Positions 5,916-45,199 of a DNA stretch of 45,467 nt are shown here, piece by piece (positions within the stretch are counted from its first letter, which is position 1; every line of letters starts with the position of its first letter). The stretch is taken from assembly GCA_902770045.1 (NCBI GenBank), contig CACXRO010000005.1:1-45467 (forward strand), written 5' to 3'. This stretch comes from an uncultured bacterium. Lineage in GTDB: Bacteria; Verrucomicrobiota; Kiritimatiellia; RFP12; UBA1067. The notes beneath the pieces are model-generated. The model was not told the origin of the DNA. It did not search any database and saw only the letters and a list, made by a program, of their open reading frames with translations. Position numbers and translations under genes: made by a program.

Positions 5916-8873
5916 TCAGCAACGGCCGGTGATCGAGGGCGATGCCGGCGTCTCTGCAGGCTGGCGGCCCGAGAGGACGAAAAGCGGTCTCAGGAGCGCG
6001 AGCGTGACCGGCTTCAGGATGATGCTGTCGAACCCCTTCTCGGCGAACGTCTCCTGCAGCTCGACGTCGGCGGTGATGACGTGGACTGGCAGCTTCGCCA
6101 GCCGCGGATCGGCGCGGATCGCCGCGACGAGGCCGGCGCCGTCGAGCTCCGGCATCCACATGTCGGTTAGGACCGCGTCAAACGCCGGCAGGTCGGGATT
6201 CTGGAGCCGCGCAAGCGCCTCTTTGCCGTCCATCGCGGTTTCGAGCTCGAAGGTCCCGAGCTTCTTCATGAGCGCCTTGAGGACGGTGAGGTTCATCTTG
6301 GCGTCGTCGACGAGAAGGACGCGTGGGTGCGTGGTCGGGTGGTTAGATGGCTGGGCGGCTGGGTGGTTGGGCTTGTCCGCCGCAGCCTTGGCGAAGGCGG
6401 ATGGCTTGGTGGGGGCGCCCTCGGTCTGCGCCACCCTCACCCCCGGAACCGTGATGCGGAAGGTCGAGCCCTTGCCGAGCTCCGACTCGAAGGTCATCGA
6501 GCCGCCCATCGCCTCGGCGAACTGTCGGCAGACGGCGAGGCCGAGGCCCGTGCCACCGTTGCGCGAGATTTTCGAGGCCGTCTGAACGTAGGGCGAGTCG
6601 ATCTTGAGCTTGTCCTCGTCGCTGATGCCGACGCCGGTGTCCTCGATCTCGATGACGAGCGTTCCCATGTCGCCGGTGGCGTCGACGCGGTCGAAGCCGG
6701 CGCGCAGCTCGACATAGCCGCGCTCCGTGAACTTGACGGCGTTCGCGACGAGATTGAACACGATGTGCCTCAGGCGCAGGGAGTCCACCATGAGCGACGG
6801 GATGTCGCCGGTCGCGTCGCGGATGTCGACGCCGGGCTTGGACGCCCCCACCCTGAACGCCTCCTCGATCTCGTGGAGGAGCGCATGGCAGTCGGTCGGC
6901 GAAAGCGAGACCTCGGCATGGCGCGAGTCGCGCCGGGAGAGGTCGAGGATGTCGTTGACGAGCGAAAGGAGCGACCTGCTGCTCGTGAGGATGGACTGCA
7001 CCGCCTCGTCGGCCTCCTCCTTGGTCCTGAAGCCCATCTGCAGCATCTGGGAGAACCCCACGATGGCGTTGAGGGGAGTTCTGATGTCGTGGCTTATGGT
7101 CGAGAAGAAATATCCCTTCGCCTTCGCGGCCTCCTTCTCCCGGCTGGAGACGACGGAGTAGATGCTGTACATCATGACGAGCGCGATGAGCGCGAAGACT
7201 ATCTGCACGAGGTTGTTGCGCGTAAGCGTATCGTCGACCCACTCCTTCTGGCGTTCGAGGAAGCCCGCCGCCTCGGCCTCCTCGGACGTGACGTTCCCGT
7301 CCCTGTCGACAGGCGCGTAGCGTTCGTGGATCTCCGTGACGACGGCGTTGGTGACGTCGCGCTCCTTCTGGCGGCTCCACATGTGTCCGAAGAACAGGAT
7401 GAAGAAGAGGAGCACGACCCAGGCAATGGTCGAAGTGCCGATTTTGCCGTTGCGGTCGCGCCCGAACACAACGCGGAAGACGACGATGCCGACAATGCTC
7501 CAGGCGGAGAGGATGAGGTACGACTCCGGCGCGAGCGCGTCCACCACCCAGAAGTTTGGCACGAGGAAATACACCAGGAACGCAGCGGAGATGGCGAGTC
7601 CCGCGCATCCGCTCGCCATCACGAAGAGGCGCCTTTCCCCCTTCGCGACCACGAACGTGCAGAAGGAGGTGTATCCGTAGGCGATGCTCGCGCCGATGGT
7701 CGTGACGTCCACGATCCAGCCGACCGCCGTGCGCCCGACGAAGGGAACGAGGCACGAGACGGCGATTATGGCGAGGATGGCGTTGCGCGGGCTTCCGTCG
7801 CGGTCCAGCTTCGCGAAAGCGCCCCAGAGCAGTCCGTCGCGCGACATCGCGTAGAGGAGACGGCTCGCGGCGACGACGTGGCCGACGATGCCGGTCGCAA
7901 TCGCGGCGATCGCGGTGAGGCAGAGGAGGACAAGAGCGGGCCTGCCGACCGCGGCGGCGACGGCATTGAACACGGGCAGCGCCGCCAGGCCGTCGAGTCC
8001 GCCGCGCGCGGCCATGTAGTCGCGCCAGCCGTTGAAGCCCGGCGGGCAGGAGGAGGCGGCCACGAGGGTGAGCAGGATGTAGGCCGCGGCCGCCGCGAGC
8101 AGGGAAATGACGATGACGCGCACCGTGCGCCAGCGCGGAAAGGCGAACTCCTCGGCAGAGTGGGAGATCGACTCGAACCCGACGAACGCCCAGGGCGCGA
8201 GCGCCACCACCGCGACGATCTGGAGGATCGGCGGCCTGCCGCCGGCGAACGCGGGGGCGAAGGACGCGAGCCCGCCCTGGTGCTTCGCCATCACGGCCGC
8301 CGCGCACACCGCGATGCCGGCGGCGAGGACGAGCGCGAAGAAGGTCTGGACGCGGGCGGCGAGGCGCTTGCCGCAGAGGAACAGGCCGCCGACGAGAAGA
8401 AGCGCCGCGGTCGAAAGGAGAATCTCGCCGGCGTAGACATCGTAGCCGGAAATCTCGTACCTGAAGCCGAAGCTGAAGAATCCGCCGAGGAGATGGCGGC
8501 CAATGAGCGCGAGCGCGGTGGCGTTGGCCCAGGCGATGGCGACGTAGGTGAGGATGAGGAACCAGCCGCAGATGTAGCCGTGGTCGCCGCCGCAGACGCG
8601 CTTCACGTAGCCGTAGGCGCCGCCGGCGTCGGGGAAGTTCTGGATGAGGTAGTGGTAGTTCCGCCCGATGACGAACATGACCAGCGCGCCGACGCCGAGC
8701 CCGATGACGCTGCCAAGCGGCCCCGCGACCGGCAGGAAGGCCGTCCCCGGCATCACGAACGCGCCCCAGCCGACGGCGCACCCGAACGAAAGCGCCCACG
8801 CCTGAAGCGTCGTCAGATATCTTCTCTGCGCGCCGCCGTCCGCCGCATTCCCACCTTTTTTGGCATCGCCCAT
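5916..8873 (-). CDS. APC permease-hybrid histidine kinase fusion 1
   Basis: 985 residues. About 1-470 form an APC-type amino acid permease: about 12 hydrophobic helices, with FGCAVGWGAFVMPG in helix 1 and GYICGWFLILTYVAIAWA near 100. Another helix follows (482-496), then an extracytoplasmic segment (about 498-553) and a last helix (554-574). The kinase has HisKA with STISHDIRTPLN (His595), an N box around Asn711, DTGVGI (746-750), GGTGLGL (773-779), and a receiver domain (851-965; Asp904, Lys954). The permease probably acts as sensor, transporter or both, as CbrA does with a different carrier family. There is no DNA-binding output, so phosphate must pass to another protein. The HATPase-receiver linker (824-850) is made of a dispersed repeat. 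The ATG at 8873 has GGAG 10 nt upstream and an extended -10 at 8901-8911. Confidence 0.9.
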   Translation of the reverse strand: MGDAKKGGNAADGGAQRRYLTTLQAWALSFGCAVGWGAFVMPGTAFLPVAGPLGSVIGLGVGALVMFVIGRNYHYLIQNFPDAGGAYGYVKRVCGGDHGYICGWFLILTYVAIAWANATALALIGRHLLGGFFSFGFRYEISGYDVYAGEILLSTAALLLVGGLFLCGKRLAARVQTFFALVLAAGIAVCAAAVMAKHQGGLASFAPAFAGGRPPILQIVAVVALAPWAFVGFESISHSAEEFAFPRWRTVRVIVISLLAAAAAYILLTLVAASSCPPGFNGWRDYMAARGGLDGLAALPVFNAVAAAVGRPALVLLCLTAIAAIATGIVGHVVAASRLLYAMSRDGLLWGAFAKLDRDGSPRNAILAIIAVSCLVPFVGRTAVGWIVDVTTIGASIAYGYTSFCTFVVAKGERRLFVMASGCAGLAISAAFLVYFLVPNFWVVDALAPESYLILSAWSIVGIVVFRVVFGRDRNGKIGTSTIAWVVLLFFILFFGHMWSRQKERDVTNAVVTEIHERYAPVDRDGNVTSEEAEAAGFLERQKEWVDDTLTRNNLVQIVFALIALVMMYSIYSVVSSREKEAAKAKGYFFSTISHDIRTPLNAIVGFSQMLQMGFRTKEEADEAVQSILTSSRSLLSLVNDILDLSRRDSRHAEVSLSPTDCHALLHEIEEAFRVGASKPGVDIRDATGDIPSLMVDSLRLRHIVFNLVANAVKFTERGYVELRAGFDRVDATGDMGTLVIEIEDTGVGISDEDKLKIDSPYVQTASKISRNGGTGLGLAVCRQFAEAMGGSMTFESELGKGSTFRITVPGVRVAQTEGAPTKPSAFAKAAADKPNHPAAQPSNHPTTHPRVLLVDDAKMNLTVLKALMKKLGTFELETAMDGKEALARLQNPDLPAFDAVLTDMWMPELDGAGLVAAIRADPRLAKLPVHVITADVELQETFAEKGFDSIILKPVTLALLRPLFVLSGRQPAETPASPSITGRC
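6324..6404 (-). repeat. In-frame proline/asparagine-rich repeat in the kinase linker
   Basis: This stretch encodes residues 824-850 of permease-kinase 1 (FAKAAADKPNHPAAQPSNHP type). It combines a GGTGGTTGGG-type unit with a block running GGTTGGGCTTGTCCGCCGCA. The latter recurs with one difference in the first 25 nt at 18345-18369, in the GT4 gene. Paralogue 2 has an unrelated linker here, which supports insertion. Confidence 0.65.
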
Positions 8874-19090: not shown

Positions 19091-21951
19091 CTTCCCTCCA
19101 TCGCCAGCGCCTCGGCAAGGCTGGCTTTTGTTATCGGCTTGAGGAGAAGACTGTCAAACCCGATCTCCGCGAACTTCGCCCGGAACTCCACATCCGCCGT
19201 GACGACGACGACGCGCATATCCGAGAGCGTGGGATCGGCCCGGATGGCCTTTACGAGTCCCGAACCGTCAAGCCGCGGCATCCACATGTCCGTGAGCACC
19301 AGGTCGAACCGTCCCGCCCCCGGCGACCTGAGGGTCTCGAGCGCCTCCTGTCCGTCCCCGGCCGAGACGACCTCGAACTTTCCGAGGTTCTTGAGCTGCG
19401 CCTTGAGGACCATGATGTTCATCTTCGAATCGTCCACGATCAGGATGCGGCGGGGGGAGCCCGACTCGGACGCCGGATGGACCGGCGCGACATGCGCGGG
19501 CATGCCATCGGCCTTCAGCCCTTCGGCCTCGCACGTCTTCACCCCCGGTATCGTTACCGAGAACATCGAGCCCTTCCCGAGTTCCGATTCGACGTTGAGT
19601 CTCCCGCCCATCGCCGCGGAAAGCTGCTTGCAGATTGCAAGGCCGAGCCCCGTTCCCCCGTTGCGCGACAGCTTGGATCCGACCTGGACGTAGGCCGAGC
19701 CGATGCGCGCGAGGTCCTCCTTGCTTATGCCGCATCCGGTGTCCGCCACCTCGATGCGCAGCGTGCCCGACTGCTCGTCCGCCCTCATGAACGACGCGCG
19801 TATCTCGACATAGCCCTCGTGGGTGAACTTGACGGCATTGCCGACGAGGTTGAACAGCATCTGCCGGATCCGCTGCGGATCGACCATCATCGGTGGCATC
19901 TCGTCGACACGGCACCGGACTTCGATTCCGGCTTTCCCGCTCGCAACCTTAAAGGCGTCGGTCACCTCGCGCAGCAGCTTCGTGCAGTCAGTCGGCTCCG
20001 GCAGTATCTCCATCTTGCCGGACTCGAGCTTGGAAAGATCCAGGACATCGTTGACGAGCCCGAGGAGAGTCTTGCCGCTGGCGATGATGGCGTCTTCCGC
20101 CTGGACGCGCTCCGCCTCGGTGCTGAAGCCCGACTTCAGCATCTCGGAGAACCCGATTATCGCGTTGAGCGGCGTCCTGATGTCGTGGCTCACGGTCGAG
20201 AAGAAATAGCTCTTGGCCTTCGCCTTCTCCTTCTCCATATCGAGCTCGCGCCGGCGGAAGAGCATGTATACGGCGATCATCAGCACGAGCGCGAGGACGG
20301 TAAGGACGCTCTGCACGTCGCTGTTCCGGATTATCGTCTCGCGGACGACCTGCAGGTCGCGGCGGAGGCGGCCGTGCCAAGACTTCTCGCGGGCGATCCC
20401 GACCTCGTCTTCTGCGCCGGCCCGGCGGAAGACCTCGCCGTGGCTTTCCACGATGCCACAGTACGCCTGGCGCACGGTCTCGCCCGCCGTCTGGCGCGCC
20501 CAGACGTGCGAAAGCGCCACGATCACCAGGAAAAGCGAGACCCACACGACCGAGGAACGCCCGAACCGATGCGATTCGTCCCGGTGGAACGCGAACAGGA
20601 AGAACACGAGTCCCGCGATGCACAACAGCACCAGCGCGAGATACGAAACCGTCCCCATCGAAACCGAAAAGGCGGGAAGGAGGAAAAGTACCGCTATCAC
20701 GGCGGAGAAGAGAAGTCCGACTATCCCGGTGGCCGCAGAGAAGCGGTCGCCTTCGCCTTTCGCCAGCTTGAAGGCGGCGGCTGACGTGTAGGCGTACGCC
20801 ACCGCCGTGCCGACGAGCGCAACGTCGACTATGATGTCGACCACGGTCAGGCCAAGGGTAGACGATGCGACGGCGACGGCGGCAATGACGAACCCGGCGT
20901 TCCTCGCTGAAAGCGCGCCCTTCTCCCTGCCGAGCCAGAGCGGCATCGCCCCGTCGTCCGCCATCGCCGCGAGAAGCCTGCTGGCGACGATAGTGTTCCC
21001 CAGGAGATTGGTGAACAGGGAGCAAAGAAGCGTAATCGCGAGCACCGCCGGTCCCGCTCCGCCGAGGACGCCCTTGACCATGTCGAAGGCGCGGAAGTTC
21101 GCGTTGCCGGACTGCGAGACCGCGGCGAACCATCCCGCGCCGTCGCCACCCGCCGCCAGAACCGGGATCAGCATGGCCATGACATACGCGGCGACGGACG
21201 CGGCGATTGCCGCCGCCATTATCCAGAAGGACCTCCGGACCGGAAACCGGAACTCCGCGGATATGCAGGATATGGATTCGATCCCCACGAAAAGCCAGGG
21301 GGAGATCATGAGTATGCCGAGGATCTGGACAAGGGGCGGGCCGCCGGAGGGGGAGAAGAACGGACGCATCGACGCGAGCCCCCCCTCGTTGCACGCCACT
21401 GCGGCTCCGAAGCAGGCGACCAGCCCCGCAGCCAAGACCAGGGCTGCCGCGATCTGCACCGCCGCCGCGACCCGCCGCCTGGCAATGAGCGCGGCGACGA
21501 TGCCCATGGCCACCGTTACCATGGCTATGTCGCCAAGGCAGACCCTGAACCCGGAGACATGGTACTTGAATCCGAAATGAATCGGATTTCCCCCGAGCAG
21601 ATAGCGGACGATGACGGTAAGCATCTCCGCATCGGCCCAGACTATCGCCGCGTAGGCGAGGCACAGAAACCATCCGCAGATGTATCCGTGGTCGTGCCCG
21701 AACGCCTTTTTCGCGTAGGAATACACCCCGCCGGGACCGGGACACTTCACCATCATATAATGGAAATTCCACGCGATCACCACCATGGCGAGCGCGGCGA
21801 CGGCAAGCCCCAGAACCGTTCCGGCGGGACCGGCCTTGGGCAGGAACTCCGTCAGGGGCAGGGAAAGCACGTCCCAGCCCACGGCGCACCCGAACGCAAC
21901 CGCCCATGCCCCCAGCGCGGAGAAATGGGCAAGACCACTCCTGTTGTTCAT
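19087..21951 (-). CDS. APC permease-hybrid histidine kinase fusion 2
   Basis: 954 residues, same architecture as the protein at 5916-8873. The APC-type permease covers about 1-455 (FGCAVGWDVLSLPLTEF; GYICGWFLCLAYAAIVWADA). Then come a helix (about 466-482), an extracytoplasmic loop to about 545, a helix (about 546-565), HisKA (STVSHDIRTPLN, His589), HATPase (Asn704, DTGCGI at 737-742, GGTGLGL at 765-771) and a receiver (834-948; Asp888, Lys938). The domains align throughout with paralogue 1, so the pair arose by duplication. The linker before the receiver here is ordinary and lacks the repeat seen in paralogue 1. ATG 21951 directly abuts the TAA of the GT4-GT26 gene, and the TGA overlaps the next GT4 start. 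The substrate is unknown; an amino acid is likely from the family. Confidence 0.9.
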   Translation of the reverse strand: MNNRSGLAHFSALGAWAVAFGCAVGWDVLSLPLTEFLPKAGPAGTVLGLAVAALAMVVIAWNFHYMMVKCPGPGGVYSYAKKAFGHDHGYICGWFLCLAYAAIVWADAEMLTVIVRYLLGGNPIHFGFKYHVSGFRVCLGDIAMVTVAMGIVAALIARRRVAAAVQIAAALVLAAGLVACFGAAVACNEGGLASMRPFFSPSGGPPLVQILGILMISPWLFVGIESISCISAEFRFPVRRSFWIMAAAIAASVAAYVMAMLIPVLAAGGDGAGWFAAVSQSGNANFRAFDMVKGVLGGAGPAVLAITLLCSLFTNLLGNTIVASRLLAAMADDGAMPLWLGREKGALSARNAGFVIAAVAVASSTLGLTVVDIIVDVALVGTAVAYAYTSAAAFKLAKGEGDRFSAATGIVGLLFSAVIAVLFLLPAFSVSMGTVSYLALVLLCIAGLVFFLFAFHRDESHRFGRSSVVWVSLFLVIVALSHVWARQTAGETVRQAYCGIVESHGEVFRRAGAEDEVGIAREKSWHGRLRRDLQVVRETIIRNSDVQSVLTVLALVLMIAVYMLFRRRELDMEKEKAKAKSYFFSTVSHDIRTPLNAIIGFSEMLKSGFSTEAERVQAEDAIIASGKTLLGLVNDVLDLSKLESGKMEILPEPTDCTKLLREVTDAFKVASGKAGIEVRCRVDEMPPMMVDPQRIRQMLFNLVGNAVKFTHEGYVEIRASFMRADEQSGTLRIEVADTGCGISKEDLARIGSAYVQVGSKLSRNGGTGLGLAICKQLSAAMGGRLNVESELGKGSMFSVTIPGVKTCEAEGLKADGMPAHVAPVHPASESGSPRRILIVDDSKMNIMVLKAQLKNLGKFEVVSAGDGQEALETLRSPGAGRFDLVLTDMWMPRLDGSGLVKAIRADPTLSDMRVVVVTADVEFRAKFAEIGFDSLLLKPITKASLAEALAMEGR

Positions 21952-24024: not shown

Positions 24025-27000
24025 GATGCCGCCACCTCCCCGAATAGGGCGCGCAGCTTGTCGCCCGTCACCGGCTTCGAGATCACCTTCGCGAACAGGC
24101 TCATGTCGTAGGTGGATCCGACGTCGACGTCGGCGGTCACGGCGACAACCGGAATCTCGGCGAGCCTGCGGTCCTTGCGCATCGCCTCGGCGAGCTGGGT
24201 GCCGTCCATCTTCGGCATCCACATGTCGGTCAGCACGAGGTCGGGGATCCACTCGCTCATCACCTCGAGGGCGCGCTCGCCGTTCTCGGCGTAGCGGATG
24301 TCCTTGATCTTCAGGTTGCCGAGGTGGATGCCGAGGATCTTGCGGTTCATCGTCATGTCGTCGACGACCAGCACCCGGTCGGGCATGACGGCGCGGATCG
24401 TCTGCTCGGCGGCGCGCGGTATCATGGAGATGTTCTGGACGAGCACGAGGTCGGGGATGTCGATGACGAAGGTCGTGCCCTTGCCGAGCTCGCTTCTCGC
24501 CGTGATCGTGCCGCCGGCGTTGTCGACCATGCGCTTGACGATCGGCAGCCCTAGCCCGGTGCCCTTGATCTCGCCGGCGCTCGACTGCATGCGGCTGCGG
24601 ATGTCCTGGATGAACGGGTCGAAGAGCCGGTCCATCTTGTCCTGCGAGATGCCGCAGCCGGTATCGCTGACCTCGAGGTGGAGGTTGCACCTCGCGCCGT
24701 CCCACGCCGCCCGGACCACGATCTCGCCGTGCTCGGTGAACTTCGCGGCGTTGCCGACGAGGTTGATGAGGATCTGGCGGACACCCTGCTGCGCCAGTTC
24801 GACGATCGGCAGCTGGTCGGCCGGCGGGGCCTCGATGCGCAGCTTCACGCCGTGGCGGCGGACGCGGTAGCCGAATATCGCCGGCAGCTCCCTGAGGAGC
24901 TGGCCGATGTCGCAGACGCCGGAGCGCATCTGCATCGCGCCGGCCTCGAGCTTGGAGAGGTCGAGGATGTCGTTGATGAGGTCAAGGAGCGCGTTGGAGC
25001 TGAGGAGGATGCCCTCGATGTAATCCTTGCGCTTGGCTTCGTCGAGATCGGGAGCGGACATGAACTCGGCGAAGCCGATGACCGCGTTGAGCGGGGTCCT
25101 GAGCTCGTGAGACATCATCGCGAGGAATCTGGTCTTGGCCTGCGCATGGTCCTCGGCGATCGCGGCCGCCCTGTTCGCGCGCTTCGTCTGCTTGACGAGA
25201 AGCGCTATCATGACGGCGCCGAATATGACGGCGACCAGCAGGATCACGAACACCGTGGCGGCAATCCTGCGAATCAGCTCCTCCCGCGTCAGCCCGAACA
25301 CGCGGTGGACGACCTGGCGTTCGGCGGCGTCGGCCATGAACATCTCCTGGAGCTGGGTCTGGTCGATGCCGGTCATCACCTTGTTGAGGATCGAGACGAG
25401 CTCCTTGGGGACGTTCGGGCGCGCGAACATCTCGAACTCCTGGTACATGTCCTCGGCACCGATCTCCTGCGCGGCACTCTGCGGGACGGGGATCGCGAAC
25501 ACGGACTTCGCGCCGTAGGTCGCGGCGGACGCCTTCACCGGATAGGGTATCCACAGGTCGGTGTCGCCGCGCAGGAACTTGGCCTCGGCGGTGTTGATGT
25601 CGGTCTGCGGCTGGATTGAGAGCGCGAGCCCCGTGCGCTCGTGGATCTCCCGCAGCAGGTCGGCGGCGAACCCGGTCGGCTTGCCGTCGGCGTCAAAGAG
25701 CGGGAACGGCCACGGCGAAAAGTCGACCATCACCGGGCTGTCGTTTTTCAGGCGGCGGTTGAGCCAGCGCGACTCCTCCATCGAGAGCGCGGCCATGTCG
25801 CTGCGCCTGCCGTAGTGGTGCTCGCTGATCATGCGGAGGTACTTCGGGAAGTCGTCGCAGATCTCGTCCATCGCCTGCTCCAGCTCCTCGAAGAGGTCCG
25901 TGCGCCCGAGCGCGGCGCAGATGTACATCGGGTGCGAGGCGTAGAGGTGGAGCGCCTTCTCGTCCTTGAGCTCCGGCATCTCCACGTCCACCACCGCGTC
26001 CACGTCGCCGCGGAAGTACGCCGCGAGCATGTCGCGGTCGGACGAGAACTCGACGCAGGAGATCGACTCGTCGCCGTCGAACTGTCGGCGGGCGCGCTGC
26101 GAGCTGATGGTGCTGGCGAGAAGACCCACCTTCATGCCGTGCCAGGTCTCGGGCTCGCCGGGCATGTAGGGGCTGTTGGGACGCGCCCAGAGGTACACGC
26201 GCAGCATGCCCATCGGCGTGTGCGGGTAGAGGAACTTGTCGCGCCGCTGCGCGGTGAAGCCGATGCCGCCCACGATGTCGAGCCGGCCGTTCATCACGTC
26301 AGCGAGGCTCTCGTCGTAGTCGCCGTAGACGTAGTCGACGTTCCAGTGGGTGTGGCCGACGATCGACTTCATCCACACCTCGAGCGCGCCGGAGCGGTCG
26401 CCGTCCGGCGTCGCCTCGAAGAGGTCGCCGCGGCTGTACGCGGCTACGCGCACGCGCTTCTGCGGCTTCGAGACGCCGAGGAACTGCTCGCGCCATTCGT
26501 CGTACTTGTCGATGTGCGTGATGTAGCACTCGCGGTAGGCCTTGGCGAGCTTCTTCAAGAGCTGCGGCTTCCGCTTGTTGACCGCGAAGTAGACGTTGCG
26601 CGAGCCGATCGGCACCACCTCCACGACACCCTCCGGCCGCTTGCCGAACGGAGTGTAGAGGAAGAGCGCGTCGATCTCGCCGTCGTGCAGCGCCTGCACG
26701 GCGCCGACGCTCGTCGGTATCTCGACGTAGGTCGGCGAAAGACGCGCGTGCTCGAAGTACCTGGTGCGGTCGTTGTTGGATATCTGGCCCTGCGACACCG
26801 GAGAGTAGCCGATGCGCATCCGCGGCCACTCGGTGATCTTGGTGGACATGAGCTCCATCGCGCGCGATGGCGTCGCATAGAGGGCGAAATGCATACGCCC
26901 GAGCGGCTGCTGGGGGAAGTCGAAGTCCTCCAGCAGCTTCTTCGTGCGGAACGCGGAGCAGATGACGTCCGCGTTGGTGACGTCGGCCAGGTGGTCGTCA

Positions 27001-30815: not shown

Positions 30816-32494
30816 TTGACTTCCCCCTTGAAGTTGGCTTGCCCCCCGACCGCTTCCAGGTTCAGGGGGATGTGGTAGATGGTCTCGTTCAACTTGCCAT
30901 AGCGGTTGCGCTCGATGCCGTCGCAGAGCTCGCGCACCATCATCCGGCCGCGCCCGCGCCCGCTCATCTCGCGGTTGGCAAGTTCGAAACCGGTGTCGGT
31001 CGAACCGGCGGCGACGGCAAGGCTCGGCTCGGGCGAGCCGCAGTCCCACACCGTCAGCTCCGCCGTCTTGTTCACCAGCCGGAGCCGGATGCTCACCACC
31101 TCGTGCAGTCGCTCGCGGTCGGTGAGGCCGTGGTCGTGGATGTTCATCAGCTTCTCCTCGAGGACGAGCTGGATGCGGTCGACGAGCGACTGGTCCCAGC
31201 CCTCGCCGGCGCACCAGGCCGCCACATCCTGCGACATCTGGTCCACCTCCGCCGGCGAGACCGGCGAGGTCGCCTCGAAGACGCCGGGCAGGTTCGCGCG
31301 CTTGCCGAAGACGAGGATGGTCACGTCGTCGTGCAGGGTGCCGTAGCCGATCTCCGCCGCCGCGCGCATGAACTTGTAGGGCTCGACCATGATCGAGCCG
31401 TCCGCGCGGCCATCGGTGATGAGCTCGTTGCGCAGCTTGGCCACCATCGCCGCCGGCATCTGCTCCATGCCCTCCGTGTCGCGCGACATGTCGAGGAGCC
31501 CGTCGGTGTAGGCCACCACCACCGAGTCGTCGAAGAGCGGAGTCGTCACCACGTCCTTCTCGGAGTAGACCGTGTCGGCCATCAGCCCGATCGGCAGCCC
31601 GCCGCGCTTCTCTGGGTTGACCTCGCACACCACGCCGTCGGACACCACCACCGGGTCCGGCGCGCCGCAGTTGAGCCAGACGACGTCGTTCCGAAGCGGA
31701 CGGTGCAGGCAGAGGAGCGCGGTCATGTAGGAGACCTCCGCCAGGTTGTTCCGGAAGAAGCGCTGCAGGCGGTTCGCGATGTCGTAGATCTGCACCGAGC
31801 TCTGCAGCTTGCGGTTGGAGAGCTGCTTGATGAACGTCTGCACCGCCGTCATCGCGAGCGCCGCGCTGGTGCCGTGGCCCTGGATGTCGCCGAGCAGGTA
31901 GAGGTAGCACCCCTCGCCGAACGGCATCGCCTCGTAGAGGTCGCCGCTGACCATGTCCTTCGCCTTCCAGAACGCCGTGTAGAAGCCGCGCTCCGTCATC
32001 ATCGCGCGCACCGGCAGCATGCTGCTCTGGATCTGGGCTGCGAGCGCCATCGACTGCCTCTGCTCCTCGATCTGACGCTCGATGAACTGCTCGATCCGGC
32101 GCGAGGCGATGGTGCGCTGCACACGCTGGAGGAGGACGTCGGTGTCGACCGACTTCGGCAGGTAGTAGCTCAGCGGCTCGGAGACGATCTTCTTCAGGAA
32201 CCCGCTCCCCTCCTCCGGATCGAGCGCCGTCAGGAAGAAGATCGGCATCGACCGGTCGATGCCGCGCACGATGTCGCGGAACACGAAGCCGTCCATCTCG
32301 CCCATCACGATGTCGGAGATGATCGCGCCGAAGTGCTTGTGGTCCTTCTTCAGGACCGCCACCGCCTCCTCCACCGTCCCGACCGCGACCGGCTCGTACC
32401 CCACGCGCTTCAGCCGCGCGCTCATCGTGAGCCGAATCAGCTTCTCGTCGTCGACCACGAGAATCTTCGGCATTGTTTCCACATGCCCTGCCAT
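30812..32494 (-). CDS. REC-PP2C(SpoIIE)-HATPase response regulator (HsbR-like)
   Basis: 560 residues, three domains. The receiver (about 9-130) has the acidic pair VVDDE, Asp61 in IISDIVMGEMDG and Lys114 in LPKSVD. A short coiled segment precedes a SpoIIE/PP2C phosphatase (about 155-405): SGDLYEAMPFGEG, LLGDIQGHGTSAALAM (metal-binding Asp185 and Asp203) and HDDVTILVFG. The C-terminal HATPase_c_2 domain (about 415-545) resembles RsbW: LVLEEKLMNIHDHGL, VWDCGSPE, GRGRMMVRELCDGIERN. A protein with both phosphatase and kinase modules can set the phosphorylation state of a STAS partner, probably the one at 27572. The ATG at 32494 has GGAG 10 nt upstream. A -35/-10 promoter lies at 32571-32599, so this gene starts the locus. 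Confidence 0.93.
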   Translation of the reverse strand: MAGHVETMPKILVVDDEKLIRLTMSARLKRVGYEPVAVGTVEEAVAVLKKDHKHFGAIISDIVMGEMDGFVFRDIVRGIDRSMPIFFLTALDPEEGSGFLKKIVSEPLSYYLPKSVDTDVLLQRVQRTIASRRIEQFIERQIEEQRQSMALAAQIQSSMLPVRAMMTERGFYTAFWKAKDMVSGDLYEAMPFGEGCYLYLLGDIQGHGTSAALAMTAVQTFIKQLSNRKLQSSVQIYDIANRLQRFFRNNLAEVSYMTALLCLHRPLRNDVVWLNCGAPDPVVVSDGVVCEVNPEKRGGLPIGLMADTVYSEKDVVTTPLFDDSVVVAYTDGLLDMSRDTEGMEQMPAAMVAKLRNELITDGRADGSIMVEPYKFMRAAAEIGYGTLHDDVTILVFGKRANLPGVFEATSPVSPAEVDQMSQDVAAWCAGEGWDQSLVDRIQLVLEEKLMNIHDHGLTDRERLHEVVSIRLRLVNKTAELTVWDCGSPEPSLAVAAGSTDTGFELANREMSGRGRGRMMVRELCDGIERNRYGKLNETIYHIPLNLEAVGGQANFKGEVK

Positions 32495-40294: not shown

Positions 40295-41080
40295 CTACAG
40301 CCGCGCGAAGTTCATGTAGACGAAGCGGTAGTCGTCGGGGTTGTAGATGTACTCGTGGCCGTGGGAAGGTCCCTCTCGGACGAATTCGCCGTCCTTTATC
40401 GCAACAAGCCGCGTGAACGGAAGCGGCTTCCAGTCGCCCTGCGAAAGCGGATTCGTCGAGAGCGTCACGGAATCGTCGTCCTTGCGATAGTGGAGCGCAC
40501 CCCTGAAGTTCGTGTGGGCATAGAGGGTCTCTCCGTCGAAGACGAGGAGGTTGAGCTTATTCCCCTTCGCGAGCGCGGCAACCACCGAAGACAGGGTGTC
40601 GAAGCGCTCCTCCTCCGAAAGCGGACGCCCCAACCGTATCTCTGCGCGGTTCACGAGGTCGACCAGGTAGAGGAGAAGCCGCTCCGAGTCCGTCTCGCCG
40701 TACTGTACGCCGATGTAGTCGTTGAGCACCGCGCCGTCGAAGACCGTCCCGTTGTGGGCGAGCGTCCAGACGCGCCCCGAGTTGTCCGTCGCCGTGAACG
40801 GATGGCAGTTCTCGTATTCCATCGTGCCGACTGTCGCGAACCGTATGTGCGCGATGATCGTCCGCTCGTCGATCCTGCTGTCGAGCAGATTCCGCAGGCA
40901 CTCGCTCGTTGTCGCCTTGCGCGGCTCCTTCTCCACGCCAGGGGCAACGAGAGCCCCGTCGTCTCCGAACCGCGCGAGCCCCCAGCCGTGCGGATGCCGC
41001 TCGGCGTGGGAGAAGAACTCGCGCAGCGTGGCGTTTGCCTTGCGGCGGCGCTTTGCCGATATCCCGAGCATCTCACACAT
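40295..41080 (-). CDS. Class II glutamine amidotransferase (YafJ/EgtC-like)
   Basis: 261 residues starting MCEMLG, so Cys2 becomes the N-terminal nucleophile after methionine removal. Class II (Ntn) features are HPHGWGLARFGDDG, RTIIAHIRFATVG, ENCHPFTATD and WTLAHNGTVFDG. It matches the GATase_4/6 group, which includes YafJ and EgtC (gamma-glutamyl amidohydrolase of ergothioneine synthesis). The ATG at 41080 overlaps the stop of the upstream gshA-like gene by 8 nt. Since two glutamate-cysteine ligases precede it, I infer it acts on a gamma-glutamyl thiol product, removing or transferring a gamma-glutamyl group. EgtB and EgtD are not in the window. Confidence 0.88.
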   Translation of the reverse strand: MCEMLGISAKRRRKANATLREFFSHAERHPHGWGLARFGDDGALVAPGVEKEPRKATTSECLRNLLDSRIDERTIIAHIRFATVGTMEYENCHPFTATDNSGRVWTLAHNGTVFDGAVLNDYIGVQYGETDSERLLLYLVDLVNRAEIRLGRPLSEEERFDTLSSVVAALAKGNKLNLLVFDGETLYAHTNFRGALHYRKDDDSVTLSTNPLSQGDWKPLPFTRLVAIKDGEFVREGPSHGHEYIYNPDDYRFVYMNFARL

Positions 41081-42164
41081 GGCACGCCTCCATCCACGCA
41101 TAGCGCATTTCCGGATGATACACCTTCTCCGCCTCGAACGCGAGGATCGCCCGCGCCTCGGGGAACCCCGCAAAGAACTCCTCCATCCGCTCGATGAGCT
41201 CTCCGACCGGCGTCCAGTCGAACTCGAGCAGTGCCGCCGCCTTGAAGTGCCCGACGCACTTCGCCTGCTTTTCCGCGGAAAGCGTCTCGCGTGGCTGCGC
41301 AACGCACCAGAGGAAAAACAGCCGCACGAACTCAATGTCGCGCGCATCGACGAGTCCGCCGACGAGCGGATTCAGGTCCACGCACCTCACCTCGATGTGG
41401 TCGATGCCGTTCTCGACGAGCGTCTGGAGCCGGTTCTGCCCGCGCGGCTTGAGGCGTATCGGGTAGTATAACTCGCTCGGCGCGACGAGCTGTCCGTCCT
41501 GCACGTACCGCGCGATGCTCCGTGCGTAGCCCCTCACGCTCGAGAAGTCGAGGATTGGGATGAACTTGTTCCAGTAGCCGCGCTCCGAGCACCTGACGCT
41601 CGAGTAGCGTCCGCGCGGACTCGCCGCGGTGAGCGCGACAATCGCCCAGCCCCACTTGATGCACTGTGACGCGAGATGGAGATAGAGCGCGTCGCGGTCG
41701 GCTCCAGACGCCTCGACCAGCTTCTCGCCAAACGAGAAGTTGACGTGGATTCCGCAGTACGCCATGAGCGCCTTGCCGTACTTATCCGCAAGGTAGTCGC
41801 GGTAAGTCGACTTCCCGGCGAGCGGCCCGTCGAACTTCGCGGGGACGATTTCGTCCTCTTTGAGACTCGCCGGAGGGTTAGAGTTCGTCCACAGCCGCTC
41901 GCCCCGCGGCAGAATTGCCGCGCGAATCACCGCGTCGATCTCCTTCAGCTCCGCCACAGCCTCGTCTGCCGTCGGCCATGCGCGCGTGTTGATCTCCGTC
42001 TGGTTCTCGCAGAAGTCGCGGACAATGCGCGGATGGTCGGCCGGGAACGGATGCGGCGTATGCGCCATCCGTCCGTCCGCAGTCACGCGCAGCGCCTCGC
42101 GCTCCAGTCCGAAGTTGCCGTCGAAAGCCAGCGGACGCAGTTTATGGTTGCGCACATCAAGCAT
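41073..42164 (-). CDS. gshA: Glutamate-cysteine ligase, GshA type
   Basis: 363 residues. It forms gamma-glutamylcysteine using ATP. The start NFGLEREALRV (18-28) is the family motif; others are FCENQTEINTRAW, RLWTNSNPPASL, GKSTYRDYLADKYGKALMAY, CGIHVNFSFGE and IDHIEVRCVDLNPL. It resembles the ligase half of GshA/GshF proteins; at 363 residues it is shorter than E. coli GshA (518) and has no GshB-like half. The ATG at 42164 overlaps the upstream stop by 8 nt and has GGGGAGG upstream. It lies between an unrelated ligase of the GCS2 family and the amidotransferase. Confidence 0.9.
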   Translation of the reverse strand: MLDVRNHKLRPLAFDGNFGLEREALRVTADGRMAHTPHPFPADHPRIVRDFCENQTEINTRAWPTADEAVAELKEIDAVIRAAILPRGERLWTNSNPPASLKEDEIVPAKFDGPLAGKSTYRDYLADKYGKALMAYCGIHVNFSFGEKLVEASGADRDALYLHLASQCIKWGWAIVALTAASPRGRYSSVRCSERGYWNKFIPILDFSSVRGYARSIARYVQDGQLVAPSELYYPIRLKPRGQNRLQTLVENGIDHIEVRCVDLNPLVGGLVDARDIEFVRLFFLWCVAQPRETLSAEKQAKCVGHFKAAALLEFDWTPVGELIERMEEFFAGFPEARAILAFEAEKVYHPEMRYAWMEACHV

Positions 42165-43566
42165 CGCGACCTCCCCTCAAATCGCCGTAGTCGGCGGCAA
42201 TTGATTCGATCGATTCGCCGCGCTCCAGGCGCTCAACGTGTTCGCGGGCGGGGCTCTCGAGCGTGTCGGCGCGGCGGCGGAGCGGGGCGAGGAGGTGTTC
42301 TTCGCCGAAGCCCCTCGCGGCAAGGCCGTCCTCCGCGATGTCAAGGATGCGGTGGAGCTCAACCGCGAGCGCCTTGCGGTCGACGAACGACGGCCATTCG
42401 CGGCGGATCATGAGGCCCCGCAGCTCCGCCGCGCCGTAGCCGTGTCCGTAGAGGACGGCGTCATGCTCGAGAAGTTCGGAGAGCCTCTCGACGCGCTCCG
42501 CAAGCCCGGCGTGGAACGCGGCGGCGGCGAACGCCTCGCGGACGGGCTGCTCGCATACAGACCGGAACTCGACCGTTCCGCGCTGCGTCAGATCCTCGAA
42601 CTTGAAGGGCCTGAGCCAGGCTACGTCGGCGGGAGACGGCGCAATGAGGCACTTGCGGTGGACCTTCGCCGCGCCGTCCCAGTATTCGCCGACGACCGTG
42701 CCGAGTCCGAGATAGTCGCGGAGCGGAACCGGCGCGAAGTTTATGTAGCGCTCTCCACGCTCAACGCAGTAGACGCTTGTCGACTCGAGGTAGCCATCGA
42801 TGTCCGCAAGGGAGCGAAGGGTCACGCCGTACATCCCGCAGTTGTGCGGATTTATTCCGTGAAGACTTTTGCTCCAGAGCGCGTCACGTCCACACAGCGT
42901 CTCGCTTCGCTCGCCGAACGGGGAGTTGGCGAGAAGAACCGCCTTGAACGGCTCCAGCAGATTGAATGTGTTGATGACCTGGACCAACGTCTCCTCGTCG
43001 GCGTCGACCTGCGTTTGCGACGAGCAGGAGAAGAGCCCGAAGTCGGGGTGGTCGTGGAACTGAGGAGAGCCGCCGTACTTGGAATACGATTTCAGGTGGT
43101 GGAGAAGCATGCGGTAGCGTCCGTTGCCTATCGGTGCCTCCCGGTTCACGCGCCAGCGCGGATTGATCCCCATTCCGGTAAGGGCGTGTCCGCGATGTCC
43201 GAACGCATCCTGAAGCGCCGAGTAGTAGGCGACGAATCGGCGGCTCGTCTCGTTCAGGTCGTCGCCCGGGCCAAAGGAAAGCTCAAGTGTATTGTACGAG
43301 CAGTCGAATGATAGCTCGTCGCGGGTCGCGGGATCCGTCGCGCGGTAGACAGCGCCCTCGTCGTCACGCACATAGTCCGAAAACGGAAAGCGCGAAAGAA
43401 AATCCTCGGTCGCGGCATGGACGGCGGAGAAGTCGGTCGCAGCTCCTGGCACGAGGTTCCACACCGGCAGCTCCAGCTCGACGCCGACGCGCCGCGTGCG
43501 CTTTCGGCGCAGCGGAGCGAAGAACCGCGCCTGAAGCGCGTCGGATATGGGCTTGTTGTCTGGCAT
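42157..43566 (-). CDS. GCS2-family glutamate-cysteine ligase-like enzyme
   Basis: 469 residues. GCS2 (PF04107) includes plant and bacterial glutamate-cysteine ligases and EgtA. Motifs are RVGVELELPVWNL, YNTLELSFGPGDDL, GRYRMLLHHLKSYSKYGG, FHDHPDFGLFSCSSQTQVD, VINTFNLLEPFKAVLLANSP and VEFRSVCEQPV. It is unrelated in sequence to the GshA-type gene next to it, so the two probably use different acceptors or act in different conditions. The ATG at 43566 is chosen; a second ATG at 43584 directly follows a TAGAAT (-10-like) box and would be inside the promoter. Neither has a clear ribosome-binding site. It begins a three-gene operon with 8-nt overlaps. Confidence 0.88.
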   Translation of the reverse strand: MPDNKPISDALQARFFAPLRRKRTRRVGVELELPVWNLVPGAATDFSAVHAATEDFLSRFPFSDYVRDDEGAVYRATDPATRDELSFDCSYNTLELSFGPGDDLNETSRRFVAYYSALQDAFGHRGHALTGMGINPRWRVNREAPIGNGRYRMLLHHLKSYSKYGGSPQFHDHPDFGLFSCSSQTQVDADEETLVQVINTFNLLEPFKAVLLANSPFGERSETLCGRDALWSKSLHGINPHNCGMYGVTLRSLADIDGYLESTSVYCVERGERYINFAPVPLRDYLGLGTVVGEYWDGAAKVHRKCLIAPSPADVAWLRPFKFEDLTQRGTVEFRSVCEQPVREAFAAAAFHAGLAERVERLSELLEHDAVLYGHGYGAAELRGLMIRREWPSFVDRKALAVELHRILDIAEDGLAARGFGEEHLLAPLRRRADTLESPAREHVERLERGESIESIAADYGDLRGGRDA

Positions 43567-43755
43567 GGCTTTAGATGTCCACATATTCTACAACACTTCC
43601 GCCTCCAACGGATAATCGGAAGTTGTTCGCGTGTTCCATAGGCACATCCTATAGTCGCGGCCAAACAACGAAAAGCCAAACTTTGACATTCGTATGACAC
43701 TTCACATTTCTGAATATGCGATAATACGCACCGTCACCTGCGGGGATGGTCTCCG

Positions 43756-43787: not shown

Positions 43788-44048
43788 ATGAAGAAGATGA
43801 TGACGGTTGTCGTGGTGGCTGCGCTTTCAGCGGCGTTTGCCGGATGCTGCTCGTGCGGATCGGACAAGACGGAGTGCTGCAGCAAGGCCAAGTGCGAGTG
43901 CGTCGCCGGGAAGCCCTGCTCCTGCGGCGACAAGTGCAACTGCGCCAAGGAGGCCGCCTGCGCGTGCGACAAGGGCAAGGACTGCACCTGCTGCGCTGAC
44001 CACGCCAAGTGCGCCTGCAAGAAGCCAGGCTGCAAGTGCGTGAAGTGA
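43788..44048 (+). CDS. Cysteine-rich metallothionein-like lipoprotein
   Basis: 86 residues from the ATG at 43788 (AAAGGA upstream); the in-frame ATG at 43746 lies before the promoter. A signal peptide (MKKMMTVVVVAALSAAFAG) ends at Cys20 in FAGC, a near-lipobox. The mature part holds 20 cysteines in about 67 residues, many as C-x-C pairs (KCECVAGKPCSCGDKCNC; CTCCADHAKCAC), with many lysines and one histidine. This is the composition of a metallothionein, but metallothioneins are cytoplasmic, whereas this one would sit in the envelope. It could bind Zn, Cu or Cd outside the cytoplasm. I know no named family with this exact pattern. It precedes a two-component pair on the same strand. Confidence 0.85.
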   Translation: MKKMMTVVVVAALSAAFAGCCSCGSDKTECCSKAKCECVAGKPCSCGDKCNCAKEAACACDKGKDCTCCADHAKCACKKPGCKCVK

Positions 44049-44061
44049 CGGGCGCTGACAC

Positions 44062-44538
44062 ATGAAGCGAACGGCATCCATCGTCGCGCTGATCGTCCTC
44101 CCCTCGCTTCTCATCGCGTGTGGAGGCATTCACCTCGTCCTCCGCGAGCGTGCATCGGTCTGCGCGGCGGTGGAGGGCCATGAGTCCTGCTCGTGCGGGT
44201 GCCAGAGCCTCCGGTCGCACACGAACCTCATGGCCGCCGAAGCCGGCGTGGCGATTCTCCTTCTCCTTGTCCTCGCGCTGTGCGGGGCGGCTGCTGCGTT
44301 CGCGGTCGACGCCAGGCGCACGCGGCGACAGTCCGCCGCGCACAAGGCGTTCGTCGCGGACATCTCCCACCGGCTTCGCACCCCGCTCACTGGAATCTGC
44401 CTCAATGCCGACCTGCTGAAGGAGAAGCGACTTGAGGCCGAGGCGGAGCGCGACGACGCGATAAAGGACATCGCGGACAACTCCGCCCGCCTGACGGGCC
44501 TTGTGGAGCAATTGCTCGACCATGTCGCGAAGTCCTGA
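44062..44538 (+). CDS. Short histidine kinase with HisKA but no ATPase domain
   Basis: 158 residues. A first hydrophobic segment (about 5-22, ending LLIAC) and a second (about 60-82) flank a short periplasmic loop with four cysteines (Cys34, Cys43, Cys45, Cys47; GHESCSCGCQS). A HisKA domain follows: ADISHRLRTPLTGICLNADL with His103, and an antiparallel second helix to the end (SARLTGLVEQLLDHV). The gene then stops; the next gene starts inside it (17-nt overlap), so no HATPase domain is encoded here. It could be phosphorylated by another kinase's ATPase domain, or act as a phosphatase or sensor. The loop's CSCGC resembles the neighbouring cysteine-rich lipoprotein, suggesting metal sensing. 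Confidence 0.85.
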   Translation: MKRTASIVALIVLPSLLIACGGIHLVLRERASVCAAVEGHESCSCGCQSLRSHTNLMAAEAGVAILLLLVLALCGAAAAFAVDARRTRRQSAAHKAFVADISHRLRTPLTGICLNADLLKEKRLEAEAERDDAIKDIADNSARLTGLVEQLLDHVAKS

Positions 44539-45199
44539 CATCCTGATCGCGGAAGACGATCCCGTGATCCGCCGTGCGGTGAAGGCCTCACTGAAGAGCG
44601 AAGGCTATTCCGTGCGCGAGACGGCGGACGGCGCCGACGCGCTCAGGTCGTTCGGCGAAAAGCGGCCCGACCTCGTCCTCCTGGACGTGATGATGCCGAA
44701 CACGGACGGCTTCGAGACATGCAGGCGCATCCGGTCTGCCGACGCCATGGTTCCGATCATCTTCCTCACTGCGCGGTCGAGCGAAGACGACAAGGTAAAG
44801 GGGCTCGGCCTCGGCGCCGACGACTACATCGTAAAGCCTTTCGGCGTCCGCGAACTTCTCGCCCGCGTTGCAGCCGTCCTGCGCCGGACCGAAGCCCGGA
44901 CGCCAGAGTCAATTCCGCTTGGTTCCTCGCGGATCGATCCGCGCAGGGCGGTGCTGACCCGCCCGGACGGAAGCGGGACTCCGCTGACGGCGCGCGAACT
45001 GCGGCTGCTCCTTATCTTCGCCGCGCGCCCCGGCGAAGTGATTTCCCGCGACGAACTCCTTAACATGTGCTGGGGAATCGAATATCTTGGCACCACCCGC
45101 ACACTTGACCAGCACATCTTCGTCCTGCGGAAGAAACTTGCGCAGGACGGCTCACGTCTCGTCTCGGTCCGCTCGCTCGGCTATCGGTTCCAGTTGTAG
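44522..45199 (+). CDS. OmpR/PhoB-type response regulator
   Basis: 225 residues. The ATG at 44522 overlaps the short kinase gene by 17 nt; an upstream in-frame ATG (44501) gives seven extra residues unlike the family. The receiver domain has EDD (11-13), LLDVMMP with Asp55, LTARSSEDD and the conserved Lys in IVKPFG (about 105). A winged-helix DNA-binding domain follows: LTARELRLLLIFAARPGEVI, SRDELLNMCWG, RTLDQHIFVLRKKL and SVRSLGYRF. It would act as a DNA-binding regulator, perhaps of the metal-binding lipoprotein gene and itself. Its partner kinase in the operon lacks an ATPase domain. Confidence 0.95.
   Translation: MSRSPDILIAEDDPVIRRAVKASLKSEGYSVRETADGADALRSFGEKRPDLVLLDVMMPNTDGFETCRRIRSADAMVPIIFLTARSSEDDKVKGLGLGADDYIVKPFGVRELLARVAAVLRRTEARTPESIPLGSSRIDPRRAVLTRPDGSGTPLTARELRLLLIFAARPGEVISRDELLNMCWGIEYLGTTRTLDQHIFVLRKKLAQDGSRLVSVRSLGYRFQL

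Follow-up and report, generated by a model that had tools for sequence, protein, structure and literature searches.

A cysteine-rich lipoprotein operon with a HisKA-only membrane sensor in a Kiritimatiellae family

Results

A three-gene operon conserved in ten genomes

The window, the whole 45,467-nt stretch of DNA that we analysed, corresponds to an entire contig, C5, of a draft genome of 2.27 Mb. Near its right end three genes lie on the + strand, encoding a putative Cys-rich lipoprotein that is metallothionein-like in composition (43788..44048; 86 aa), a HisKA-only (DHp) membrane sensor (44062..44538; 158 aa) and a PhoB/OmpR-type response regulator (44522..45199). The lipoprotein and sensor genes are 13 nt apart and the sensor and regulator genes share 17 nt, the spacing one would expect in an operon. 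An earlier note on this DNA had described a lipoprotein, a membrane kinase and an OmpR-type regulator. All three genes were found in place, but the description of the membrane protein as a kinase did not survive the analysis below.

Ten genomes of a single Kiritimatiellae family, the window's among them, carry these three genes in unchanged order wherever the contig extends far enough; in two relatives it breaks off within the regulator gene or ahead of it. Conserved linkage had been set beforehand as a test that could overturn the proposal of a common system, and it holds in these genomes. Six of the nine relatives belong to the same genus and three to another genus of the family, and the four records that name a source give roe deer or goat gut. 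All three genes are under purifying selection, with dN/dS between the window and one relative of 0.26/0.96 for the lipoprotein, 0.32/0.86 for the sensor and 0.14/0.86 for the regulator, values that are rough with dS near 1; between two relatives the sensor gave 0.005/0.115.

The DNA flanking the operon differs among the genomes. HD-domain and MarR genes lie upstream in several relatives, and in the window a pair of neighbouring genes of glutamate-cysteine ligase type (GCS2 and Glu_cys_ligase families; 41073-43584, - strand) lies upstream and is divergent from the operon, an arrangement not seen in the relatives. This suggests that the three genes are moved or recombined together as one module. 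No mobility gene for the module was identified, and a metal-transport gene linked to the operon was not found. A virus or plasmid origin was considered and dropped, since no sensor relative was found in viral contigs or plasmids.

A putative lipoprotein with invariant cysteines

The first protein contains 20 Cys in 86 residues, lipobox Cys20 included. A generic lipobox pattern ending at Cys20 was found in the window copy and in one representative relative, which makes it a putative lipoprotein, and its -3 residue is Phe rather than the usual Leu. When the window copy was aligned with one representative relative, 18 of 18 aligned Cys were invariant, compared with 35 of 61 other aligned positions. 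This invariance, together with homologues in nine other genomes at E below 1e-18, argues that the protein is not a chance reading frame. Searches for a known family gave no Pfam match at E<=1, no match among curated metallothionein families (one irrelevant NCBIfam match lay far below its cut-off) and nothing significant in a structure search of the PDB. Another member of the genus, in whose genome the three-gene operon was not found, also encodes a secreted Cys-rich protein (L049:1366-1932), in which C-x-C motifs recur (CKAGAPCICG).

The lipoprotein is predicted to be exported, and the number, spacing and conservation of its cysteines suggest that it may bind metal. By thiol chemistry the candidates would be Cu(I), Zn, Cd or Ag, and the sequence cannot name one of them. 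The same cysteines might instead serve redox chemistry or form disulphides. An envelope redox or thiol-stress system working without metal, in which the lipoprotein and the sensor loop form disulphides and sense oxidants, would agree with the strict conservation of Cys only, with hardly any His, and with the ligase-type genes that adjoin the operon in the window. We consider it rather unlikely: metal-thiolate clusters typically show C-x-C and C-C spacing and many Cys, and no such ligase genes were seen next to the operon in relatives.

The membrane sensor has HisKA but no catalytic domain

The sensor has two transmembrane helices, at about residues 5-23 and 63-81, and the loop between them holds Cys34, Cys43, Cys45 and Cys47, so that the four-Cys periplasmic loop pointed out in the earlier note is present. 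The loop pattern, C-x8-C-x-C-G-C, is invariant among the copies, making it plausible that a common thiol or metal chemistry is used by the lipoprotein and the sensor loop.

Beyond the second helix, HisKA is the sole Pfam domain (PF00512, E 7e-14), and Pfam gave no HATPase_c match in the sensor. The frame stops 56 residues from H103, the His counted, so the ATP-binding domain is absent, giving an architecture of transmembrane helix, Cys loop, transmembrane helix and DHp with no CA domain. A hidden ATPase domain was looked for and rejected: the frame holds none, and the last bases of the sensor gene already include the start of the regulator. An AlphaFold2 model, moderately confident overall (mean pLDDT 69) with the DHp part at about 80-85, contained a transmembrane helix, a short loop, a long helix that begins as the second transmembrane segment and continues as DHp helix 1 and, after a turn, DHp helix 2, and nothing else.

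Profile alignment of the DHp to HK853 matched H103 with H260, R104 with E261 and T107 with T264. The position after the His (H+1) is Arg or Lys in all ten copies, with no acid, and the Thr at H+4 is invariant. In HK853, CrdS and two more HisKA kinases, E-to-A at H+1 kills autokinase but not phosphatase activity, and T/N-to-A at H+4 has the reverse effect (PMC3510030). Taken with these mutant data, the alignment indicates that the sensor keeps the phosphatase residue and is without the catalytic domain and the kinase residue. The label of membrane kinase therefore had to be given up, with both HATPase_c and the acid needed for autophosphorylation missing, and the protein does not qualify as a sensor kinase of the usual kind. 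The scheme built on that label, a conventional metal-sensing two-component system with the membrane protein as an active sensor kinase, can point to the HisKA domain, the adjoining OmpR-type regulator and the Cys-bearing loop. It is nevertheless contradicted by the sequence, which lacks HATPase_c and stops at the same point after the DHp in all ten copies, and we regard it as hardly credible.

The loss of a whole catalytic domain could also mark a degraded kinase on its way out as a pseudogene. This is very improbable. The common end point is kept in two groups that are only 63% identical (relatives' sensor against the window sensor), the loop Cys are invariant, and dN/dS well below 1 does not describe a decaying gene. 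Two more kinase-less groups with intact overlapping regulator genes, described next, argue in the same direction.

Further kinase-less sensors in the same family

A search with the DHp profile revealed two further HisKA-only membrane groups in the same family, beside OmpR-type regulators; we refer to the operon sensors as type A and to these as types B and C. Type B sensors (about 285 aa, seven loci, L147-L153) have secreted proteins upstream that resemble formylglycine-generating enzyme, as judged by eye. Type C sensors (about 225-230 aa, six loci, L146 and L154-L158, from several genera) all read H-R-L-K-T-P and mostly lie beside OmpR-type regulators, the regulator of L156 not having been recovered by the scan. 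HisKA was the only domain in the four sensors scanned from types B and C.

Over the 23 kinase-less loci H+4 is always T, and H+1 is R or K in 18 and E in five, all of them type B (the other two type B loci have K); these counts are by locus, and the loci are not phylogenetically independent. L159, a 279-aa E-type frame that may be a truncated kinase, was left out. Full-length HisKA kinases fetched by homology had E at H+1 in all 20 distinct sequences. Since E is kept in five of 23 loci, loss of the H+1 acid is not strictly tied to loss of the CA domain. In a regulator tree, the regulators paired with types A, B and C and with the full kinases fall into separate groups, which fits either one or several CA losses; the two cannot be told apart from the tree. 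When 388 genomes of the phylum were searched, the best sensor matches outside the family all lay in longer frames with one exception, a weak match in a 246-aa frame. A DNA pattern scan for HisKA motifs without the H+1 acid was set aside, its hits being mostly chance and about as frequent as in the control.

The regulator and its putative operator

The best start of the regulator gene is the ATG at 44522 (MSRSPDILIAEDD), and the gene ends at 45199. Its product carries Response_reg (PF00072) and Trans_reg_C (PF00486), both above cut-off, in agreement with the OmpR-type assignment made earlier. The best NCBIfam model was PhoB, at 191 bits under its 296-bit cut-off. Elsewhere on the contig, three large frames at 5991-6785, 19105-19881 and 24048-24788 (-) each contain HATPase_c and receiver domains, and a further receiver domain lies at 32117-32464.

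Upstream of the operon, the + strand reads TTTGACATTCGTATGACAC from 43682 and contains two 7-bp repeats at 11 bp spacing, laid out as (T)TTGACAT-TCGT-ATGACAC with an 11-bp period. A -10-like GATAAT begins 19 bp past the repeat. The spacing of PhoB-type (Pho) boxes is likewise 11 bp, and we treat this PhoB-box-like tandem direct repeat (43682..43700) as a putative operator. It is kept in the relatives, being identical between the window and all nine save one base (the site is cut by the start of the G060 contig), whereas much of the surrounding DNA diverges. Nine of the ten genomes contain the exact 17-mer a single time, always upstream of this operon. A unique, conserved 11-bp repeat at this place suggests autoregulation, and the simplest reading is that the operon is the single target of a regulator that would bind 43682-43700. 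One second regulon target was considered, a one-mismatch site in the same genome that precedes a HipB/HipA-like pair; it was rejected because that pair has a TTGACA-TATAAT layout of its own.

Discussion

Sensor kinases are commonly viewed as kinase and phosphatase in one. In the operon sensor the kinase part has been lost, so it probably removes phosphate from the regulator rather than adding it. Two precedents are consistent with this: the isolated DHp of HK853 shows phosphatase activity (PMC5727384), and EnvZ without its kinase domain is cited as a phosphatase (Zhu 2000, cited in PMC3510030). Nucleotide bound to the CA domain supports the phosphatase activity of HK853 (PMC7005713), and by analogy the DHp alone may be a weak phosphatase, which is a point against.

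The explanation that we favour, at a probability of roughly one half, is an autoregulated operon for thiol or metal buffering in the envelope, whose sensor is a phosphatase of its regulator and whose phosphate comes from acetyl phosphate or another kinase. The regulator, which the sensor alone could not phosphorylate, would gain phosphate from one of these sources, bind the repeat at 43682-43700 and transcribe its own operon. More of the Cys-rich lipoprotein would then be made, and soft metal ions would be trapped (or oxidants reacted) outside the cytoplasmic membrane. The sensor is envisaged as a DHp-only dimer that takes phosphate off the regulator, with its periplasmic Cys loop binding the same ligand and switching the phosphatase on or off. 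Dimerisation, phosphatase activity and the direction of the response are all predictions from the sequence.

The main rival to a phosphatase is a split kinase or phosphotransfer module, in which an ATP-binding domain acting in trans would phosphorylate H103 and the phosphate would pass to the regulator. H103 is invariant, and its strict conservation fits phosphotransfer as well as phosphatase activity. Split kinases are biochemically established elsewhere (PMC3591291), and this genome encodes several complete kinases as well as a stand-alone 180-aa HATPase_c protein on another contig (G000:C31; L161:2031-2573, -) that is a possible trans partner. Against this, no CA gene belongs to the operon, the stand-alone HATPase is unlinked, and H+1 is Arg or Lys in every type C locus as in all ten operon copies. 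We therefore judge the split arrangement unlikely.

Types A, B and C may together represent a natural kinase-less lineage of two-component systems, made up of membrane DHp-only sensors with their own OmpR-type regulators, varied inputs and signalling by dephosphorylation only, with one branch in charge of an envelope lipoprotein that traps metal. We put this forward more tentatively than the account of the operon itself. What these groups of one family have in common is that the kinase half has apparently gone, while the sensory part, the residue for phosphatase activity and the regulator partner remain. If this is true, it becomes directly testable whether control of a phosphatase suffices for a two-component system to sense. 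The operon may also represent, in compact form, a metal trap anchored in the envelope and equipped with a dedicated sensor.

Two-component metal sensors are already known. An envelope metallothionein with its own sensor pair had been put forward as undescribed, a view that stands in part. Export as such has a precedent in Csp1, an exported Cys-rich copper store (PMC7558416), so an exported Cys-rich metal protein is not unprecedented, but our limited, open-licence literature search found no paper on a lipoprotein metallothionein with a sensor pair. The same search turned up no description of a natural, conserved, membrane-bound HisKA-only sensor with its own regulator, nor of such a sensor together with a Cys-rich lipoprotein.

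Among known systems, the operon resembles PhoR/PhoB and EnvZ/OmpR in that the gene for a membrane HisKA protein overlaps the gene for an OmpR/PhoB-type regulator that comes after it, and its upstream 11-bp tandem repeat resembles the Pho box in layout. It differs from them in that the sensor is without CA/ATPase, has no room for HAMP and carries a basic residue at H+1. The engineered DHp-only forms of EnvZ and HK853 are likewise reduced to a DHp in which the His and the H+4 Thr are present, but they are laboratory truncations, whereas the truncation in the window is natural, membrane-bound and conserved. The split kinases CheA3/CheA4 of Rhodobacter also have a phospho-acceptor without its own catalytic domain; they are of the CheA type with a known partner, and the window sensor is of the HisKA type with no partner linked. 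The putative lipoprotein, finally, is small and Cys-rich like the bacterial metallothioneins SmtA and MymT and shares export with Csp1. It is set apart from all three by its lipoprotein signal and by having no known-family match at the thresholds used, and Csp1 itself, unlike the window lipoprotein, is a Tat-exported four-helix bundle.
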